Shown piece by piece: positions 3,453-13,085 of a stretch of 64,000 bases of DNA. The DNA is from Rudanella paleaurantiibacter (lineage in GTDB: Bacteria > Bacteroidota > Bacteroidia > Cytophagales > Spirosomataceae). Position 1 is the first letter of the stretch; every line of letters starts with the position of its first letter. The stretch is from NCBI RefSeq assembly GCF_009184635.1, contig NZ_WELI01000012.1, forward strand, positions 1-64,000, written 5' to 3'. Made by a program: the position numbers and the translations under genes. Below the pieces are notes generated by a model. It was not told where the DNA came from. It did not search any database and saw only the letters and a list, made by a program, of their open reading frames with translations.

Positions 3453-3572
3453 TCAGGGGGTTTTTGTTTGTACAACAGGCACCGGGCGGGGTGTGGCCAA
3501 CTGAATACGAACAAACCGGTAACCCAGCCAAAACAGTAAGCCCCCCGCCAGAATCAGTCGAATGGTTTTCAT
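3453..3572 (-). CDS. Small single-pass membrane protein (39 aa)
   Basis: It starts at ATG (complement of 3570-3572), two bases after the stop of the LytTR regulator gene, and ends at TGA (3453-3455). The product is MKTIRLILAGGLLFWLGYRF followed by a short polar tail rich in Pro and Thr. It has one hydrophobic helix with a positive N-terminus. The tight spacing suggests translational coupling to the regulator. No family recognised. It could be an auxiliary membrane peptide of the two-component system, but this is only position-based. Confidence 0.55.
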   Translation of the reverse strand: MKTIRLILAGGLLFWLGYRFVRIQLATPRPVPVVQTKTP

Positions 3573-3574
3573 AG

Positions 3575-4315
3575 TTAACAGCAGGCTTTTAGCACCGCCC
3601 CCACTTTGTCGGGCGAAACGCTGATCTGGGTCTGGTTATGCAGGGTGATATAGCCGCCGTCCTGACGGCTGTACGACGCTACGTACTGCGTATTGACCAC
3701 ATACGATTTGTGACAACGGACAAACCCGTCGAGGCCTTCGAGTAAGGTCTCGAGGTATTTTAGGCTCCGGCTGATGAGCAGTTTGTCGCCCGAACGCAGA
3801 AAAATGTCCGTGTAGGCTCCATCGCCCTTGGCGTACAGAATCTCGGCGCTGTCGACAAACCGAAACCCGCTTGTTTGGGGCAGGGCAATTCGTTTGGAGG
3901 TATGTGGACTCAGGTTGTGTTTAAGAGTAAACAGATTTTGCGCTTCCCGCACTTTTTTGAGCCGAAACCGCTCGATAGCCTCCCGCAGCAGGTCGATGTT
4001 GAGTGGTTTGAGCAGATAATCGATGGCCGAAAACCGAAATGCCTGAATAGCGTACTGACTGTAGGCCGTGGTGAAAATGACATAAAAGTCAATTTCGTCT
4101 TCGTTGAAAAAGTCCATCAGCTCCAGGCCGCTGTAGTGCGGCATCTCAATGTCGAGGAACACCAGGTCCGGTTTGAGTTTCTTGATGGCTTTCACCCCAC
4201 TGGGAAGGTCGTCGCAATCGGCCAGAACGGTCAGGCCGGGGGCGCAGTCGGCGAGCATTGCTTTTAGCAATTGGCGAGCTTTCTGTTCATCGTCGATAAT
4301 GAGGGCGGTTGGCAT
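3575..4315 (-). CDS. LytTR-family response regulator
   Basis: About 246 residues, started at the ATG at 4315 because MPTALIIDDEQKAR is the standard receiver beginning. The 27 in-frame codons upstream look non-coding. The receiver domain (residues 1-120) has the acidic pair DDE, the phospho-acceptor Asp in LVFLDIEMP, Thr in FTTAYSQYA and Lys in YLLKPLN. The LytTR DNA-binding domain (about 145-245) has the FRFVDSAEILYAKGDGAYTD and FVRCHKSYVVN signatures. It lies 114 bp downstream of a LytS-type kinase and is its obvious partner. The pair sits beyond the graspetide exporter. Confidence 0.93.
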   Translation of the reverse strand: MPTALIIDDEQKARQLLKAMLADCAPGLTVLADCDDLPSGVKAIKKLKPDLVFLDIEMPHYSGLELMDFFNEDEIDFYVIFTTAYSQYAIQAFRFSAIDYLLKPLNIDLLREAIERFRLKKVREAQNLFTLKHNLSPHTSKRIALPQTSGFRFVDSAEILYAKGDGAYTDIFLRSGDKLLISRSLKYLETLLEGLDGFVRCHKSYVVNTQYVASYSRQDGGYITLHNQTQISVSPDKVGAVLKACC

Positions 4316-4329
4316 AACTGAGTCAAAAT

Positions 4330-4337
4330 CAAATGTA
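4330..4337 (-). promoter_or_regulatory. Candidate -7 element before the LytTR regulator gene
   Basis: The minus strand reads TACATTTG, an exact TAnnTTTG match, 15-22 bp upstream of the chosen ATG. No good -33 TTTG lies 19 bp further upstream. It may allow the regulator to be transcribed apart from the kinase and exporter genes. Confidence 0.4.
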
Positions 4338-4429
4338 TACTGTATAGGGTAAAATGAATGGTGAAGAGGCTGATAATCAATGGGGGAATTGTTCATTATA
4401 CCTCATTCATTGTCCATTCACGCAGGTGG

Positions 4430-7303
4430 TTACGTTAACACCGGAATATGCAGAATAACGGTTGTTCCGGCTGGTTTATGGAAAATGTCGTATTTGTCGA
4501 TGATTCGGATACCAATGTGCGAATGGTCGCCATCGTTGAGCAATTCCAGCCGTTTTTGGTTGGCCTGAGTGGCAAAGGATTCGTGTCGGCGGGCGCGTTG
4601 CTGGTTTATTTCCGACGATTTCTGGCGGCCCACCCCGTCGTCATCAATGGTCACTTCCAGCCAGGGGCCTGTTTGCCGGAAATCGACCAGCAGGTTACGG
4701 TCGTGCTTCTTGTGCATCAGTCCGTGCTTAATGGCGTTTTCGATGTAGGGCTGAATCAGCATCGATGGAATACGGATATGGTCAGTGTCCAGCTCATTGG
4801 CCACCACCAGCTGGCAATGCAGCGAGTCTTCAAACCGCATTTGTTCCAGTTCCAGGTACAGCCGAATCGCCTTCAGCTCGTGAGCCAGCGCCACGGTTTC
4901 GTCGTTGCTCATATCCAGAATCATGCGCGTTAGTTCGCTGAACTTGACCAGGTAACTGGATGCCTGCTGCTTCTCGTTGAGGTATATGTACAACTGAATA
5001 GTATTCAGGGCATTGAAAATAAAGTGTGGATTCATTTGCGACTTGATAGCCGTCAGTCGGGATTTCTGCAATTCCTGTTGCAGAGCCGCTTTTTCGGCCT
5101 GCAAAGCCGACTCGCGTTTTTGCCGCGACAGGCGTCGCTGATTACTGCCGTACACCAGCCCCGCAATGGCCAGCATAAGAGCGCCCAGAAAGGGGTAACT
5201 GAGCCAGAACGGGCTCTGTACCAAAAACTTAACCGTCAGGGTCTGCGGGCTGCTGATTCCATCTTCATTTTCCACCCGAATCTCGACCACGTAGTCATCG
5301 GGGGCGAGGGAGGGCAGGCTGAGCATCCGCACGCCGGGATCGAGGGTAACCCAGGCCTGCCCGTTGATGCGGTAGTTGACCCGCACATCGCCCTGACTCC
5401 GAAACGACAGCACCGAGAAATGAATCTCAACGTTGTTTTGGTCGTAGGCAAAGCGGGGTTTCTTATCGAGTGAAAAGGCTTGCTTGTTGCACAAAAGGCC
5501 CGTCACAACTAGCCGGGGACGGTGGGTGTTGGTGGCAGGTAGGTTTCGCGGAAAACGCACCAGACCCGATAGCGTGGCTACGTACACCATGTGGTCCACA
5601 AAAGCCAGGTCTTTCAGGTCGGTATCGGGTAGGCCGTCGGTGCGGTCGTATGTGCGGATGGTGCGTGTACGCAGGTCGAAGCTCTGCACCGCTTTTTCTG
5701 TGAGCCACCATATCTGGTTTTTATACGCTTGAATGCGGTACACGGCATTGTCGGCCAAACCGTCTTTTTCGGTAAGGTGGAGCGTTTGCCGGGGGCCATC
5801 GAAGGCGTAGATACCATCGTTAGTGCTGGCGGCAAACACGAGCGGAGCCGGCCCATCGGTCAGAGTCAGGTCGGAGAGTGACAATGATTTGTTGTCGGCC
5901 TTGATTTCAGACCCTGGACTACCGCTCGGGTATTGCCAGAAACCTTGTGAGGTGGCGGCATACAGGGTTCGGGTTATTGGGTGAACCACCACGGCACGGT
6001 TGCGGGCGGTACTTAAATTAATTTCGTACGTGGCTTCGGGTTTATGACGCGACACCACACCCAGAAATCCCGTAGCGGCAATGGCCAGCCGGTTCTGGTC
6101 GAACGGGGCAATGTCTTTTACTGAGAGCATTTGCGCAAAATCGGTCTGGCCATTGTTCCACCGGCGAAACAGGTCTGAGCTGAAAAATAGCTGTCGGGCG
6201 GTGGTGTCGTAATGAAGTGAGATAACCTCGGTGTTGCTGGTGCCTTCGTAAAGCGGAGTAATAGCCGACGCCTGGAGGTCGAGCCGGGCCAACTCGCCGG
6301 TGGCGGTACCCAAATACATCTGACGTTTTTGGGGGAGTGCCTGCAACCGCGTAAACGGTCGCCCCGGTGCAATAACGTTGACCTGCATGGATGGAATGAG
6401 CAACAGGCCGCTGTTGATGGTGGCGAGCCAGAAATTGCCTTCGTTATCCAGCATCAGGCCCGTACAGTTTTTATCGGGCAACTGAACGGATAGCCTTTGG
6501 GGTAGGGGATTGTTCATGTCGAGCAGGTAAAAACCCGCCGAACAGAACAAGCCGAGGTACCGGTCGTTGATGACCCGAACGTTCTGGATGAGCCCTGTAT
6601 GCCCCAGTTCAATCACCTGTCGCCCGCCGTCGGGGCGTTGTACCACCAGCCGCGACGCATCGGCCTTCGGAATCAGAAAGGTGTGTTTTCGTACCTTCAC
6701 CACATAAAATGTAGCCAGGCCGGGTTCATTAGGGATGTAGGTAGGTGGCCCCTGCATGGGCACGCGCACCGCCCGCTGCTGACCACCGGCAAAGAGGTAA
6801 ATAGCCTGTCCGTCGGAAAACGCGTAGGGCGAATAATGCACGTAGCTCAGCGGTAGAGAGTTGGTCAGGCGCAGCGTGCGGGTGTCCAGCACCCGTAACG
6901 AGTGAGGGCCGAAGTTGACGAGCGAAAAGCGGTTGAGCATAACGGCCGGGTAATACGAGCCCAGAGGTTCTACAACGGCGCAGTACCGGAGGCTATCGGC
7001 TTCGACGTAAAAAAACTGGCCCGAAAAGTTCTGACACCAAATCCGCCCGGCTCCGTCGAGCATGAGATTACTCAACCCCTTGTCGTTCTGGCTGTGGTTG
7101 CGGTAGGGCTGATACAGCACCCCGTCGTACCGGTACAAGCCTTTATCGGTCGCCAGCCAGATAAACCCCTGCTGATCCTGTATGAGATCATAGATTGTGT
7201 TGGAGGGTAGGCCACTCGCCTTGTCGAGCCGCTGGTAACTGACCTGCTGAGCCGCCAGCCGGTGACTACACCACAAAAGCAGGAGAATAAGCAGCGCGCG
7301 CAT
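4430..7303 (-). CDS. Reg_prop/Y_Y_Y sensor histidine kinase (LytS type)
   Basis: 957 residues. A signal peptide ends near residue 18. Repeats of the Reg_prop propeller type follow to about residue 610 (for example GLPSNTIYDLIQDQQGFIWL). A Y_Y_Y domain lies at about 615-695 and one membrane helix near 700-720 (YPFLGALMLAIAGLVYG). A short coiled coil precedes the His_kinase domain, whose phospho-acceptor is in MNPHFIFNALNTIQ near 757-770. The HATPase has the N box IQPYIENAIKHGL and G box DDDGVGR. This periplasmic-sensing layout is common in Bacteroidota. It starts 14 bp after the exporter gene, so kinase and exporter are very probably one transcript, with the LytTR regulator next. Confidence 0.93.
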   Translation of the reverse strand: MRALLILLLLWCSHRLAAQQVSYQRLDKASGLPSNTIYDLIQDQQGFIWLATDKGLYRYDGVLYQPYRNHSQNDKGLSNLMLDGAGRIWCQNFSGQFFYVEADSLRYCAVVEPLGSYYPAVMLNRFSLVNFGPHSLRVLDTRTLRLTNSLPLSYVHYSPYAFSDGQAIYLFAGGQQRAVRVPMQGPPTYIPNEPGLATFYVVKVRKHTFLIPKADASRLVVQRPDGGRQVIELGHTGLIQNVRVINDRYLGLFCSAGFYLLDMNNPLPQRLSVQLPDKNCTGLMLDNEGNFWLATINSGLLLIPSMQVNVIAPGRPFTRLQALPQKRQMYLGTATGELARLDLQASAITPLYEGTSNTEVISLHYDTTARQLFFSSDLFRRWNNGQTDFAQMLSVKDIAPFDQNRLAIAATGFLGVVSRHKPEATYEINLSTARNRAVVVHPITRTLYAATSQGFWQYPSGSPGSEIKADNKSLSLSDLTLTDGPAPLVFAASTNDGIYAFDGPRQTLHLTEKDGLADNAVYRIQAYKNQIWWLTEKAVQSFDLRTRTIRTYDRTDGLPDTDLKDLAFVDHMVYVATLSGLVRFPRNLPATNTHRPRLVVTGLLCNKQAFSLDKKPRFAYDQNNVEIHFSVLSFRSQGDVRVNYRINGQAWVTLDPGVRMLSLPSLAPDDYVVEIRVENEDGISSPQTLTVKFLVQSPFWLSYPFLGALMLAIAGLVYGSNQRRLSRQKRESALQAEKAALQQELQKSRLTAIKSQMNPHFIFNALNTIQLYIYLNEKQQASSYLVKFSELTRMILDMSNDETVALAHELKAIRLYLELEQMRFEDSLHCQLVVANELDTDHIRIPSMLIQPYIENAIKHGLMHKKHDRNLLVDFRQTGPWLEVTIDDDGVGRQKSSEINQQRARRHESFATQANQKRLELLNDGDHSHIGIRIIDKYDIFHKPAGTTVILHIPVLT

Positions 7304-7317
7304 GAAGACCGAATGGA

Positions 7318-9522
7318 TTAAACTACAAGATTAGGAACCGGCGTGTTCAACTCCAACTGATTGTGCACGAGCTGCCAGTACAGCTTCCGTTCGGCCAGAA
7401 GACGCTCGTGGGTACCCTGTTCGGCAATCTGCCCTGCCTGAAGCACCACAATCTGATGGGCCTGCCGAACTGTGCTAAGTCGGTGGGCTACCACCACTAC
7501 CGTGCGGCCCTGCCCAAACTGACTCAGGTTTTCGATGATCTGCCGCTCGGTGGCGGTGTCGAGTGCGTTGGTGGCTTCATCAAAAAACAGGTAATCGGGA
7601 TTTTTGTAAACGGCCCGGGCAATAAGAAGCCGTTGCCGCTGTCCCTGACTCAGACCCAGCCCATCCTTACCAACTCGGGTATGAATACCGAGGGGAAGCT
7701 CAGCCACAAACGAATCCAATGCGGCTGTTTGCAGTGCCTGCCACACCCGCGCGGGGTCGGGGGCCGAGTTGCCCAGAGCCACATTGGCAGCTATGGTATC
7801 GGAGAAAATATAGCCGGTTTGCCAAACTACTCCGCAACGCTGACGCCAAACGGTCGGGTTGGCATCGGCTAGCAAGTGATTTTCTCCAAGCCAGATTCGG
7901 CCGTGGGTCGGGTCGTGCGTGCCCAATAGTAGTTGCAGCAGGGTCGTTTTGCCGCTGCCGCTGGCTCCTACAATCGCTGTGGTTTTACCAACTGGAATGG
8001 TGAGGGAGAGATTTCGCAAGACGGCCTCTTCGGTGCCTGGATACGCAAACCATACGCGCTCCAGCCGCAGGGCTGTGGGTGAGCTAGGGAAGGTTATTTG
8101 GTGACCTACCCGCTCGTCGGGTTCATCGTGAAGTTCGCCGATGCGGGCGAGTGCGAGCTGGGTATCCTGGGCTTGTTGGACCAGAAAAACAGCCTGACTC
8201 AGCGGAGTAGCTAACTGCCCCACCACCACCTGCACCGCCAGCAGTACACCGAGCGAGGTGTTGCCCGCAATAACGCTGCTGGCTACAACGTAACTAATAA
8301 ACAGGTTCGTGAGCATAAACAGAACACTAGCCCCGCCTGACTGCCCAATGGCGAGTTTCTGGGCCTGTAACCGGAGGTGGTAGCGTTGCTGTTGCACACT
8401 GAGCCAGGCCGTACGGACTTGTTCTTCGGCATGGGCCAGCTTCACGTCGGGGATGCCTTCAATCAGTTCGAGCGTGCGCGACTGGCTCTGGGCTGCTGTG
8501 CCAAACAGCTCCTGATCGAGCGCGGCCCGGTGGCGCATAAACCCGAATGTCCAGATAAGGTGCAGGGCTGTACCGCACACAAACAACCCGAAAGCCGCCG
8601 GGCTGTAGTGCAGAAGCAACCCCCCGTTAATCAGCACCGCCACCGCGAGTGTGATAAGCTGTACGCTAAACTGACTCAAAAACTGGTCGATGCGCTCGTG
8701 GTCGGCAATGCGCTGTGCAATGTCGCCGAAGCGTTTCTGGTCGAAAAAGGCCAGTGGCAATCGGAGTAGCTTGCGCAGGAACTCGTCCAGTATAGCAAAG
8801 CTCAGTCGGTTGCTGAGCTGGGTTAGGAGCCAGCTTTGCGTCCAGCTACCCACCAAAAGACCAGCTGTCAGCCCCAGTTGACTAACTAAAAACCAGTGCA
8901 GCACATCGGCCCGGCGAGGTTGCACGGCTTCGTCGACAATACGCTGCGAGAGGCCCGGTAACACCGCCTGAATAGCCGCCAATACACCCAGTACTGCCAA
9001 TAACGATAGGAGTAGTCTGGGGTGTTGTAGCAAATACCGGCGGGCTTGCCAAAGCTGGTTGAGCGGGCGGGCGGGCTGAGGTGGACTGAGGGTATGAAAT
9101 GTGTGCGTTGGCGACAGAAACAGGGCGGTGCCGGTGGGGTCTGGTTGTTCGTCGGTAGCCCATTGCGCACAGAAGTCGGCCGTTGAAACCCGTACCCGCC
9201 CCAGGGCGGGATCGGCTACGTGTACGTGGTTGAGCGTGAGGGCGTACACAACCACAAAATGTTGCCGCTGCGGCAAATGGACAATAGCAGGCAACGGGGC
9301 TTCCCGGAAAACCGACCACCGTAGTTGCATGGTACGGGTTTCGAACCCCAGTTTCTGAGCGGCAACGGTCAGGCTTCGTAATGAAGCTCCTCCCCGGTAC
9401 TGACCAGCCAGTTGTCGAAGCCACGGGCGTGGCAGCGTTTGCCCGTAATGGCGGGCCACCATCCACAGGCAGGTAGGGCCGCAGTCGGCCGCGTCGTACT
9501 GGCGGGTAACCATAAAACGCAT
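7318..9522 (-). CDS. Peptidase-containing (C39) ABC exporter of the graspetide locus
   Basis: 734 residues. The N-terminal C39 bacteriocin-processing peptidase (1-135) has its catalytic Cys at residue 14 in DAADCGPTCLW and the His/Asp pair in QHFVVVY...HVADPA. An ABC membrane domain with six helices covers about 165-450. The nucleotide-binding domain covers about 490-725, with Walker A GASGSGKTT, signature LSQGQRQR, Walker B YLFFDEATNALD and the H-loop AHRLST. Such proteins cut leader peptides and export the core (NHLM/lactococcin family). It is divergent from the precursor and ligase genes across a 191-bp gap and cotranscribed with the kinase. No HlyD-type adaptor gene is adjacent. The precursor has no clear double-glycine site, so the cut position is uncertain. 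Confidence 0.93.
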   Translation of the reverse strand: MRFMVTRQYDAADCGPTCLWMVARHYGQTLPRPWLRQLAGQYRGGASLRSLTVAAQKLGFETRTMQLRWSVFREAPLPAIVHLPQRQHFVVVYALTLNHVHVADPALGRVRVSTADFCAQWATDEQPDPTGTALFLSPTHTFHTLSPPQPARPLNQLWQARRYLLQHPRLLLSLLAVLGVLAAIQAVLPGLSQRIVDEAVQPRRADVLHWFLVSQLGLTAGLLVGSWTQSWLLTQLSNRLSFAILDEFLRKLLRLPLAFFDQKRFGDIAQRIADHERIDQFLSQFSVQLITLAVAVLINGGLLLHYSPAAFGLFVCGTALHLIWTFGFMRHRAALDQELFGTAAQSQSRTLELIEGIPDVKLAHAEEQVRTAWLSVQQQRYHLRLQAQKLAIGQSGGASVLFMLTNLFISYVVASSVIAGNTSLGVLLAVQVVVGQLATPLSQAVFLVQQAQDTQLALARIGELHDEPDERVGHQITFPSSPTALRLERVWFAYPGTEEAVLRNLSLTIPVGKTTAIVGASGSGKTTLLQLLLGTHDPTHGRIWLGENHLLADANPTVWRQRCGVVWQTGYIFSDTIAANVALGNSAPDPARVWQALQTAALDSFVAELPLGIHTRVGKDGLGLSQGQRQRLLIARAVYKNPDYLFFDEATNALDTATERQIIENLSQFGQGRTVVVVAHRLSTVRQAHQIVVLQAGQIAEQGTHERLLAERKLYWQLVHNQLELNTPVPNLVV

Positions 9523-9646
9523 GGTTCTCAGGGGAGTTGATTTTTACGGCTGCAAGTTCGGCGTTCCGTTCGATATGAACCGGGGCGTTCACAAAACCAA
9601 ACCCGTCTTTGGTAAAATGCCCTACTCAAACCCCTGCCCGGTCTCC

Positions 9647-9654
9647 TATGTTTG
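9647..9654 (+). promoter_or_regulatory. Candidate -7 element of the graspetide operon
   Basis: TATGTTTG matches TAnnTTTG exactly. Transcription would begin near 9661, giving a leader of about 50 bases to the precursor ATG at 9714. The -33 region around 9624 has no TTTG, so an activator (possibly the LytTR regulator) may be needed. That last point is inference. Confidence 0.5.
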
Positions 9655-9713
9655 CCCTTGCTCGGCGGAGTAAACGGCCGGGATACATGCAACCAATCAA
9701 ATTTCTGATTACC

Positions 9714-9899
9714 ATGGAACAAACCACAAAAAAACCCTTTTTCGCCCGCTTCCTCGAAGGGCAGGACATTTCGGGTGAGCAATCTGTTGGTGCCGACCGC
9801 GGCCCTGGCAAACCCGCTCCACTTCCTTACCCGACGATGAAGTATCCATCGGATCTTGACGAGGTGACCTACCCTGAGATAGATGACATTTACAAGTAG
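9714..9899 (+). CDS. Graspetide (microviridin/marinostatin-type) precursor peptide
   Basis: 61 residues. I chose the ATG at 9714 so that the leader begins MEQTTKK and the leader motif PFFARFLEG (residues 8-16) sits near the N-terminus as in microviridin precursors. A linker (17-38) rich in Gly, Pro and Asp follows. The core TMKYPSDLDE lies at residues 41-50. By homology with microviridin and with marinostatin (TMRYPSDSDE), esters T41-D47 and S46-D49 and an amide K43-E50 are expected, making a caged serine-protease inhibitor with Met42 at the reactive (P1) position. Unusually, 11 further residues (VTYPEIDDIYK) follow the core. The ATG at 9687 would add nine residues. Confidence 0.93.
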   Translation: MEQTTKKPFFARFLEGQDISGEQSVGADRGPGKPAPLPYPTMKYPSDLDEVTYPEIDDIYK

Positions 9900-9907
9900 T
9901 TGGGTGA

Positions 9908-9935
9908 CTGGGTGTGCTCGCACGAGCATACCCAG
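9908..9935 (+). promoter_or_regulatory. Intercistronic hairpin between precursor and first ligase gene
   Basis: CTGGGTGTGCTCG (9908-9920) pairs with CGAGCATACCCAG (9923-9935) with one G-U pair and a four-base effective loop. It starts 9 bp after the precursor stop and is followed by a broken T tract. Its likely effect is partial termination or 3'-end protection, so that far more precursor than enzyme is made, as is common in RiPP operons. Confidence 0.65.
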
Positions 9936-9950
9936 TTCATGCTGTTTTCC

Positions 9951-10907
9951 ATGATTCTTTGCCTAACCCATAGCCGCGACGAGTACACTATCGATCTGGT
10001 TCAACAAACGCTCAGGGTACGGGGCTTCCAGTCGGTCAGATTGAATACCGACCAGATAGCACACAGTCAGATAAGCGTCGATCTGACAACCCGATCAGCC
10101 CGGTGCGAAGGACCGGGTTTAGCCTTCGACACCCGCGACATAACGGCCGTTTGGTACCGGAAACTCTGGGCCATCACGCCCCCGACCGACTTGCCCGAGG
10201 CCTATCGGCGAGCTACCCTGCAGGCGTTTAGCCGGGTGCAGATGGCACTGTTTGGGTGTTTGCCGGGGCGGTTATGGATGAATGACTTTACGGCCGACAC
10301 TACCGTGCAAAACAACAAGATGGGCCAGCTGGAAGCGGCTCAGGAAGCGGGTCTGGCGATCCCTAAAACCCTTTTTAGTAACGATCCGACCCAGATTCGG
10401 GCTTTTTTTGAGCGATGCCGGGGCGAGGTAGTGGCCAAATTGTACGATACCCTGACCTATGGCATGTCTGGTAGCGGGCCAGTGTTTCCAACTACCCCTC
10501 TCTCAGCGAACGACCTTACCGACGATACAGCCCTGATGGCTTGCCCTATGATTTTTCAGGAACGAGTTCAGGCTCAAACCGAACTCCGGGTGGCGTATGT
10601 CGATGGGCAATGCTTTACCGGAAGCATCGACACCCGTGGCTCGCTCAGCAGCCCAACCGACTGGCGCTATGCCGCAGATGTGTCAACAGGTTGGAAATCC
10701 TACACCTTGCCCGATACCGTTCGGGCGCAGCTGACAGCCCTCATGCGTCGGTTGGGGTTACTGTTTGGGGCTATCGACCTGATGGTGCAACCCGACGGTA
10801 CACCTGTTTTTCTGGAAGTGAACCCACAAGGCGAGTGGGGCATGCTACAGCGCGATCTCCACCTTCCGATTGCGCAGGCGATTGCCCACCGACTATCTTA
10901 CCAATAA
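9951..10907 (+). CDS. ATP-grasp graspetide ligase, MvdC/MdnB-like
   Basis: 318 residues if started at the ATG at 9951 (MILCLTHSRDEYTIDLVQQ), the family-typical beginning; the ATG at 9939 is also possible. The N-terminal pre-ATP-grasp domain (1-115) includes AVWYRKLW. The ATP-grasp core contains the lysine strand GEVVAKLYDTLTYG. The catalytic end has GAIDLMVQPDGTPVFLEVNPQGEWG, with the Asp, Glu and Asn that bind Mg-ATP. In the characterised Planktothrix and Microcystis systems this member forms the omega-amide (Lys-Glu) after the esters. Here that would join K43 and E50 of the precursor. Only 3 bp separate it from the next ligase gene. Confidence 0.92.
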   Translation: MILCLTHSRDEYTIDLVQQTLRVRGFQSVRLNTDQIAHSQISVDLTTRSARCEGPGLAFDTRDITAVWYRKLWAITPPTDLPEAYRRATLQAFSRVQMALFGCLPGRLWMNDFTADTTVQNNKMGQLEAAQEAGLAIPKTLFSNDPTQIRAFFERCRGEVVAKLYDTLTYGMSGSGPVFPTTPLSANDLTDDTALMACPMIFQERVQAQTELRVAYVDGQCFTGSIDTRGSLSSPTDWRYAADVSTGWKSYTLPDTVRAQLTALMRRLGLLFGAIDLMVQPDGTPVFLEVNPQGEWGMLQRDLHLPIAQAIAHRLSYQ

Positions 10908-10910
10908 TAC

Positions 10911-11951
10911 ATGAAAACCGTACTTATCATTACCCGTTCGTTCGATCTGCAAGCTACTACACCTATGGTTGTAAAAGCTATTGAAGACTTCGGTGGGCGG
11001 GCTATCGTATTTCCCGTCGACCGGTATCCGTTCGAGTATCAGCTGACCTACCTCGACACCGATGCGGGTATTGAAATCTGGCTCGACACGCCCGGTGGAC
11101 GAGAGGCTATCCATACCTGCGATTCGCTCTGGTTCCGGCGGTTCGAGCTGAATAAAAAAGCGTTTGTTGAGCAGTACGGTGCCAAACTTCTGCCTGCGTT
11201 TGAGGCTCAGGTGGAGGCAACGCTCAAGGGGTTAATCGAAGGTTTCGACGGGTTTGTACTCGGCCGCCCGAGCGTACACCGCCGACTGGCAAGCCGCGAA
11301 GAACAAATGCGGGTGGCTCGCCGGGCTGGTTTGCTCGTTCCAAACACCTGCGTGACCAATTCGCCAGCCGAGGCTCGGCGGTTTGTGCAGGCGCAACAGC
11401 CAGCCGATGTGATTGTGAAGTCGCAGGCGAGTTACGCGATTCAGGACGACGGGCAAACGATGGTAATGTTTACCAACCGTCTGACAACCGACGACATGGA
11501 CGCGCTCGACGACCTACAGGCTACCCCTCTGATGTTTCAGCAGGCTATTGAAAAAGAAATCGAACTGCGCATTACCGTTGCCGGGCACCGGATCTGGGCG
11601 TTTTCGATTAATTCGCAGGCTTCGGAAATCTCCCAAAACGACTGGCGCAAGAATGGAGTTGCGACCGTGAGTGACTGGAAACCCTACGACCTACCTCAGA
11701 GCGTAGCGCAAAGCCTACACACATTCATGGACCTCTACGGCCTCAACTATGGCGCTATCGACATGATTGTGACGCCCCAGGGCGACCATTATTTTATTGA
11801 AATCAATTCGGCGGGGGAGTTTATGTGGCTCGATTGCTTACAGAACTTTCAAATTTCTGAACATCTGGCGGGTATGCTCCTCGGCTTGCAACCCCGGCGC
11901 GAACAGGGCCTCGACCGTCAGTTGGTCATGCCCGAGACAATGGCGTATTAA
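10911..11951 (+). CDS. ATP-grasp graspetide ligase, MvdD/MdnC-like
   Basis: 346 residues beginning MKTVLIITRSFDLQATTPMV, the usual start of MvdD proteins. It shows the leader-binding N-terminal domain with LWFRRFELNK and the ATP-binding lysine in DVIVKSQASYAI. LRITVAGHRIWAFSINSQ and the Mg/ATP site GAIDMIVTPQGDHYFIEINSAGEFMWLD follow. MvdD/MdnC enzymes install the two omega-esters and act first. The tail after LLGLQ is about 20 residues longer than the minimal family and ends LVMPETMAY. Its last 26 bp overlap the convergent dehydrogenase gene. Confidence 0.93.
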   Translation: MKTVLIITRSFDLQATTPMVVKAIEDFGGRAIVFPVDRYPFEYQLTYLDTDAGIEIWLDTPGGREAIHTCDSLWFRRFELNKKAFVEQYGAKLLPAFEAQVEATLKGLIEGFDGFVLGRPSVHRRLASREEQMRVARRAGLLVPNTCVTNSPAEARRFVQAQQPADVIVKSQASYAIQDDGQTMVMFTNRLTTDDMDALDDLQATPLMFQQAIEKEIELRITVAGHRIWAFSINSQASEISQNDWRKNGVATVSDWKPYDLPQSVAQSLHTFMDLYGLNYGAIDMIVTPQGDHYFIEINSAGEFMWLDCLQNFQISEHLAGMLLGLQPRREQGLDRQLVMPETMAY

Positions 11952-12891: not shown

Positions 12892-13085
12892 CCGTAGATT
12901 ATCGTAACTTGCAGGAAAATTAATGGACACTGCCTAATGAACAATGAATGAAGCGCAACGTTCGCCCGGAAGAGCCCCGTTGCAAAAAATTCAGGGTTCA
13001 TTGAGCCTGGAGCGTATAAGAAGCACGGCCCATGCCCCCTCTGTGCACTGGAAACCGGCCCGCCCGCTCTTAACTGATTCCAACT

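Follow-up and report, generated by a model that had tools for sequence, protein, structure and literature searches.

What would switch on the making of a graspetide is the question raised by a locus at positions 3453..11951 of the stretch analysed here, the first 64,000 nucleotides of contig NZ_WELI01000012.1 of Rudanella paleaurantiibacter (below, the window). The locus has a microviridin-type precursor gene and two ligase genes on the + strand, and the genes of a C39 exporter, a sensor kinase, a LytTR regulator and a peptide of 39 amino acids (aa) on the - strand. To our knowledge, there is little information on the natural triggers of graspetide production. The comparisons reported here suggest that an older environmental sensor came to control the peptide genes, and we think it rather probable that the divergent promoter region of an older LytTR two-component system is the starting point of both arms of the cluster. 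If so, inhibitor, exporter and sensor would be turned on jointly by one extracellular cue.

The cluster is ordinary by its enzymes and unusual by its regulatory setting, which is made concrete by the comparison with a congener labelled G002. The new point is regulatory, as the graspetide genes appear to use a promoter region homologous to the upstream region of a LytTR kinase itself. The presence of this homologous region in sister species with and without graspetide genes makes it directly possible to study how the genes of a natural product come under regulation. The comparison also names one putative operator and one sensor to test, and it would point to the conditions, and hence to the ecological role, of a protease-inhibitor peptide. 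Of the genome labels used below, G000 is the window's own genome, G001 and G002 are its congeners and G056 belongs to another genus; L-numbers denote individual loci or stretches that were examined.

Promoter region shared with a graspetide-free congener

The intergenic region between exporter and precursor in G000 aligned with the region upstream of the kinase in G002 at a score of 70, which none of 1000 shuffles reached (mean 20.4, standard deviation 3.2, maximum 38). Within 40 kb of G002 this was the best place for the regulatory block of G000 (Table 1), the next separate place scoring 33. The alignment continues to a -7-like box, TATGTTTG, situated +104 and +105 from the block start in the two genomes, and the box faces the precursor in G000 and a secreted YCF48/Ig protein in G002. 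We take it to be a form of the Bacteroidetes consensus TAnnTTTG. Outside the block, the identity between G000 and G001 was 21/28 in the linker, 12/14 at the box, 47/53 in the leader and 17/20 on the exporter side. A mobile repeat behind the shared promoter was rejected, as an 85-bp block was single-copy in both G000 and G001 in a search that missed the diverged G002 copy.

In G002 the place between the same flanking genes as in the window lacks exporter, precursor and ligases. It reads MacB, a 104-aa gene, the LytTR regulator (72% identity) and the kinase (53-61% in two parts), followed by the secreted YCF48/Ig protein of ~690 aa, a toxin-antitoxin-like pair (recognised by eye), and then a dehydrogenase, PdxA and YicC. 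A gain of the graspetide module in the G000/G001 line appears favoured over a loss in G002, because the direct repeat described below sits upstream of the kinase with no intervening exporter in G056, G065, G077 and G039. Composition gave no signal of recent foreign DNA (GC content of exporter, precursor and ligases 0.52-0.58, window 0.556).

With G056, G065 and G012 the intergenic region of G000 gave no significant alignment in the same orientation (592, 654 and 116 of 1000 shuffles reached the score). Inverted alignments were made for six pairs, G000 and G002 each against these three genomes. The region upstream of the G056 kinase then aligned with G000 at a score of 38 (1/1000 shuffles). This alignment covers 9593-9623, which corresponds to the repeat and its spacer, and it favours reading the repeat as an operator. 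The scores of G000 were 32 with G065 (15/1000) and 20 with G012 (548/1000); G002 scored 32 with G056 (6/1000), and with G065 and G012 its scores were reached by 104 and 952 of 1000 shuffles.

Period-21 direct repeat

The sequence-only reading had pointed to 9523-9713 as the place to look for LytTR repeats, and a direct repeat with a period of 21 bp, here called the putative operator, was found there (Table 1). In published LytTR sites, a spacer of 11-13 bases separates two repeats of 9-11 bases each (PMC4847170), and LytTR regulatory systems have the repeats just upstream of autoregulated promoters (PMC6193735); all papers are cited here for the part of their text that was available. As a sequence match, a direct repeat with a period of ~21 bp at the presumed target promoter fits this geometry.

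The half-site model, built from four 11-mers of G065 alone, was scored at 20 periods. Period 21 came first in G000 and G001, in both upstream of the exporter, and also in G002, G056, G077 and G039. Its score was reached by 1, 0, 0 and 4 of 300 shuffles in G000, G001, G002 and G056, respectively, and by 0 and 4 of 200 in G077 and G039. Since G000/G001/G002 and G077/G039 are related sets, these amount to about three independent lineages besides the training one. In G000 and G001 the sequence directly ahead of the kinase, which lies inside the exporter gene, had no period-21 site (ranks 11 and 8). A search of the own genome with the operator pattern gave 10 matches against 6 in a reversed control, uninformative alone, and in G001 8 against 2.

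Several observations weigh against control of the cluster through this repeat. When any of the 20 periods was allowed, the best score was reached by 21/300 shuffles in G000 and 36/300 in G056 (13/300 in G001 and 2/300 in G002). Period 21 was second in G012, upstream of a LytTR-first operon (24/300), ranked 17 in G004, and was first in none of the seven distant kinase relatives with enough upstream sequence (ranks 20, 8, 20, 4, 3 and 3 in six, and 5 in G125). Some starts in these relatives are uncertain, and G091, G119 and G143 have too little upstream sequence, G119 ranking 6 with another start. The half-site score in G000 is a modest 15.4; the window has five period-21 places scoring at least 14, two of them higher, and a strong period-21 site occurred in only 2 of 12 stretches around the genome's other LytS-type kinases. 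Compared with G002, the half-sites are kept at only 8/12 positions each and the stretch 9543-9571 at 26/29, and in G056 the orientation of the operator relative to the kinase is reversed. On the export side, the precursor has GA, not GG, and is without the hydrophobic -4/-7/-12 positions described for C39 leaders.

Period-21 repeats were also seen at other loci. G065 carries two operator-like repeats. In G000, another LytTR operon (L141, on contig G000:C9) has a strong one (score 22.2) at position 9806, 58 bp upstream of the regulator. A second peptide cluster, L133 (G000:C34:66636-85830), combines a lanthipeptide-type dehydratase, GG-leader peptides, two C39-ABC exporters, a radical SAM gene and a LytS/LytTR pair (names given by eye); it has a clear repeat of score 22.2 at 73710, between the regulator and the exporter side, and a weaker one near 71421, ahead of the GG peptides, whose score of 16.2 is near background. 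Exporters and repeat matching those of L133 are present in G001.

Proposed mechanism and alternative explanations

In the mechanism that we propose, the propeller kinase would sense an extracellular cue and phosphorylate the LytTR regulator, which would bind the direct repeat. The bound regulator would activate a precursor-ligase transcript from the -7 box and, on the other strand, an exporter-kinase-regulator transcript, and inhibitor, exporter and sensor would rise together in a positive loop. The ligases would form two ester bonds and one amide bond in TMKYPSDLDE, giving three rings with the loss of three waters, and the C39 exporter would remove the leader, possibly after VGA, and export the product, presumed to be a serine-protease inhibitor. 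A peptide cut at that place and lacking the three waters would have a computed monoisotopic neutral mass of 3825.86 Da, against 3879.89 Da for the linear form. A switch through an extracellular cue read by the propeller was one of two roles suggested by the sequence-only reading, and it gains indirect support from the homology of the precursor/exporter intergenic region to the G002 kinase upstream region, together with the LytTR-type repeat.

At an E-value of 1e-150 the kinase was found in 9/222 family genomes (G000, G001, G002, G056, G065, G012, G077, G039 and G004), and seven of the nine had no ligase at E 1e-20 (one of the seven, G012, is 88% complete). The LytTR gene adjoins the kinase in G002, G056, G065, G012 and G004; in G077 and G039 the contig breaks off next to the kinase, which leaves the neighbouring gene unreadable. 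The sensor pair is therefore not dedicated to the graspetide, and a dedicated graspetide sensor was ruled out. A kinase and regulator found equally often away from the ligases had been set down beforehand as one of two signs against the link. The pair does often occur away from them, but what is refuted is the dedicated pair, not the regulation. The joint conservation of the six genes, which was to be looked for in related genomes, was found in G001.

The same distribution counts for chance neighbourhood, in which the module landed beside an unrelated sensor pair whose regulator acts only on its own operon or elsewhere, the precursor being expressed independently of it. Also the other graspetide loci point this way. 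Scanned were 90 loci with their neighbours within 10 kb: the best 80 named loci of 171 relatives by MvdD alignment, and ten unnamed ones. Among the best 80 named loci, kinase and LytTR regulator were present in two, a kinase alone in one and a C39 exporter in one, the exporter model having been built from three sequences so that distant exporters may escape it; among the ten further loci, only that of G001 had any of the three. The window's own genome has 0.047 such kinases per 21 kb, a density that may differ in the named genomes. Since 2/80 is near this density, the association of microviridins with LytTR pairs looks sporadic, and a general link between them was ruled out. Between the module and its flanks there was no GC difference. 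On the other hand, homology to the promoter region of the G002 kinase, repeat and -7 box included, extends to the very sequence that lies upstream of the exporter and contains the presumed precursor promoter. The gap between exporter and kinase (7304-7317) is 14 bp long in G001 too. We regard chance neighbourhood, which overlaps with the explanation considered next, as rather unlikely.

Another regulator, for example a global one, might target the conserved block, which both species would share since the block drove the kinase, the LytTR protein not being its ligand. The stretch best kept against G002, 9543-9571, lies outside the direct repeat and is better conserved than the half-sites, so another protein may bind there. 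In G056, by contrast, the repeat with its spacer is the part that is kept, and G077 and G039 too have a period-21 repeat ahead of their kinase genes, which leaves this explanation improbable.

The other role suggested by the sequence-only reading, a peptide that is both inhibitor and signal, fared worse. Gram-positive bacteriocin pheromone systems combine a C39 exporter, a LytS-like kinase and a LytTR regulator, and the locus resembles them, yet it is very improbable that the exported graspetide acts as ligand of the propeller kinase and thereby switches on its own synthesis. Ligase-free relatives keep the kinase (and the regulator in the five genomes with a readable neighbour), the sensor region is 49 and 42% identical to those of G056 and G065 in the window and 48 and 41% in ligase-free G002, with no sign of a changed sensor, and the peptides of G000 and G001 have unlike tails and differ at two positions of the core in spite of kinases that are 94% identical. 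The kinase is 54% identical to both G002 and G056, in contrast to YicC (86 and 70%); it is a rapidly changing gene. Its pace appears to be much the same whether graspetide genes are present or absent, as the sensor-region identities show no faster change in the window lineage.

Returning to the control of the cluster by the older LytTR system, we tentatively suggest, as an idea that is possible and short of probable, that the LytTR-controlled divergent promoter is an exchangeable slot for a secreted product in this family. Its occupant would be the YCF48/Ig protein in G002 and, in G056, a secreted protein with a weak likeness to SH3; in G065 and G012 the slot would hold other proteins that look secreted, and in G000/G001 the complete graspetide module, with the exporter set between operator and kinase. 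Through this placement of the exporter, a cluster for a ribosomally synthesised and post-translationally modified peptide (RiPP) would have joined the feedback loop of the sensor without evolving a regulator of its own. The neighbours of the kinase/LytTR pair in G065 and G012 (L078, L079) are secreted proteins of similar appearance, with a QQPMT-type start, and a small secreted protein; these neighbours are perhaps older targets of the LytTR system.

Genes and products of the locus

Table 1. Features of the graspetide locus with their positions in the window, strand and basis
Feature	Position	Strand	Basis and remarks
39-residue peptide	3453..3572	-	ORF (open reading frame) with one hydrophobic stretch; no family over cut-off
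LytTR-family response regulator	3575..4315	-	Pfam Response_reg and LytTR; start revised by relatives
Sensor histidine kinase	4430..7303	-	Reg_prop propeller and LytS-type His_kinase; Pfam, both over cut-off
C39 peptidase/ABC exporter	7318..9522	-	Pfam Peptidase_C39, ABC_membrane, ABC_tran; 14 bp ahead of kinase
Regulatory block	9543..9618	.	55/76 bp identical to G002 kinase upstream region; 74/76 in G001
Putative LytTR operator	9587..9617	.	Direct repeat, period 21 bp, GTTCACAAAAC N10 TTTGGTAAAA; half-site scan, alignments
-7-like box of presumed precursor promoter	9647..9654	+	TATGTTTG; identical in G001 and G002
Graspetide precursor	9714..9899	+	61 aa; PFFARFL leader, possible C39 site after VGA, core TMKYPSDLDE
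Hairpin between precursor and ligases	9904..9940	+	-28.2 kcal/mol, z -4.3; G001 counterpart z -3.2
MvdC-like ATP-grasp ligase	9951..10907	+	Best NCBIfam match TIGR04185
MvdD-like ATP-grasp ligase	10911..11951	+	Best NCBIfam match TIGR04184

The open reading frames and family matches agree with the sequence-only reading in nearly all of its gene assignments: the six named genes and the 39-residue peptide lie inside the locus, the precursor has the PFFARFLEG leader and TMKYPSDLDE core, the two ligases are of the ATP-grasp type, the divergent exporter has its peptidase and ABC domains, and the regulator is of the LytTR family. Of its Reg_prop/Y_Y_Y kinase 14 bp behind the exporter, the Reg_prop domain and the gap were found, and Y_Y_Y had no Pfam match even at E 1. 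The whole locus is present in G001 with the gene order unchanged. For the seven genes of the locus and two others, compared with a few end codons trimmed, the ratio of nonsynonymous to synonymous substitution rates (dN/dS) between G000 and G001 was 0.02-0.27, at a dS of 0.33-0.65, and there is thus no sign of decay.

The precursor matched the models NF033738 microvirid_RiPP of NCBIfam (39.7 bits, cut-off 26) and Inhibitor_I10 of Pfam (32.8 bits, cut-off 21), and with its PFFARFL leader and TxKxPSD..(E/D) core it is of the microviridin type. Among 395 genomes of the phylum the microviridin precursor model matched in eight, G000 among them. The gene probably starts at 9714, because an in-frame ATG upstream, at 9687, reads TTA in G001. 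The G001 precursor has a nearly identical leader, the retained core TxKYPSDxDE and a different tail. The residue between core T and K is Met in G000 and Ile in G001, and we presume that either would favour elastase-, chymotrypsin- or subtilisin-like targets. The hairpin behind the precursor may serve uneven expression or message stability.

Both ligases were best matched by their NCBIfam models (MvdC E 2e-100, MvdD E 1e-90), under the equivalog cut-offs, and are called MvdC-like and MvdD-like. The latter had some match in 19/149 relatives, with 92% identity in G001; besides G000 and G001, only G134 among the 149 passes 33% ligase identity (37% and 34%). At E 1e-20 it was found in 13/222 family genomes, besides G000 and G001 none with more than 33% identity, and to the best 80 named loci of 171 relatives it is at most 45% identical. 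G056 has a weak ATP-grasp match (27%, E 1e-6) on a contig other than that of the kinase.

In the exporter the C39 domain is fused to an ABC transporter. The VGA of the precursor occupies the place of GG in chryseoviridin-type leaders, and GA is an accepted C39 cleavage motif (PMC10885120). Precursors of graspetide classes II and III often go with C39 transporters and those of class I mostly lack GG (PMC13039773), and the C39/ABC family tops the weighted frequencies in a table of graspetide-ligase neighbours (PMC8939145).

The His_kinase-domain kinase and the adjacent LytTR response regulator constitute a LytS/LytTR two-component system. The regulator likely starts at 4315 rather than 4396, as its M28 aligns with the starts in G056 and G065. 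The 39-residue peptide matched no Pfam or NCBIfam family above the cut-offs. Its G001 counterpart is 87% identical, with a dN/dS of 0.21 based on a small number of changes (5.5 and 8.5), and a search of the G002 stretch at E 1e-5 gave no match to it.

Comparison with known graspetide loci and LytTR systems

The locus shares with microviridins and chryseoviridins (group 1 graspetides) the PFFAxFL leader, the TxKYPSD core and the MvdC and MvdD pair, and the order precursor-MvdC-MvdD is the same in the four named loci whose gene order was read (two of Olivibacter, one each of Taibaiella chishuiensis and Chryseobacterium echinoideorum). It differs from them in its single core with a variable tail, GA in place of GG, the divergent C39 exporter and the promoter region shared with a LytTR operon. 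In comparison to graspetide loci with C39-ABC transporters, as described in the available parts of PMC8939145 and PMC13039773, its exporter heads the sensor operon and faces the precursor. With the LytS/LytTR direct-repeat systems of PMC6193735 and PMC4847170, to the same extent, it has in common a LytTR-domain regulator and repeats of 9-11 bp with a period near 21 upstream of the promoter; its kinase, in contrast, has a propeller sensor, the presumed target is a graspetide, and the site is known here by sequence match.

The two named loci with kinase and LytTR regulator are those of T. chishuiensis, where the pair is convergent, and Olivibacter domesticus, where it follows directly behind MvdD on the same strand. 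In the latter (L160, 8778-12846) precursor, MvdC, MvdD, LytS-like kinase and LytTR regulator stand in a row on one strand as partners of the same kinds as in the window, but the kinase has 347 aa and no propeller, and no C39 exporter was found by the three-sequence model. No period-21 repeat was found at the threshold used near the precursors of these two loci, and in O. jilunii (L189) the ligases occur without a LytS/LytTR pair.

No paper combining 'graspetide' with 'LytTR' was found in the literature searched, outside which most subscription papers lie, so priority is not claimable. The earlier statement that no graspetide locus with this sensor pair has been described agrees with that search; it is weakened by the pair behind MvdD in the O. 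domesticus genome and by the OmpR-type regulators reported near graspetide ligases in the available part of PMC8939145, which reports kinase-like ATPases as well.

At the T. chishuiensis locus (L155, 11110-14593) the LytTR-LytS pair beside the microviridin genes is followed further on by a gene for a GG-leader peptide, recognised by eye. Two intergenic stretches of the window, 4390-4425 and 12920-12955, resemble each other by eye in a AATGAACAATGAATGA-like sequence, which may be a dispersed repeat of small size.

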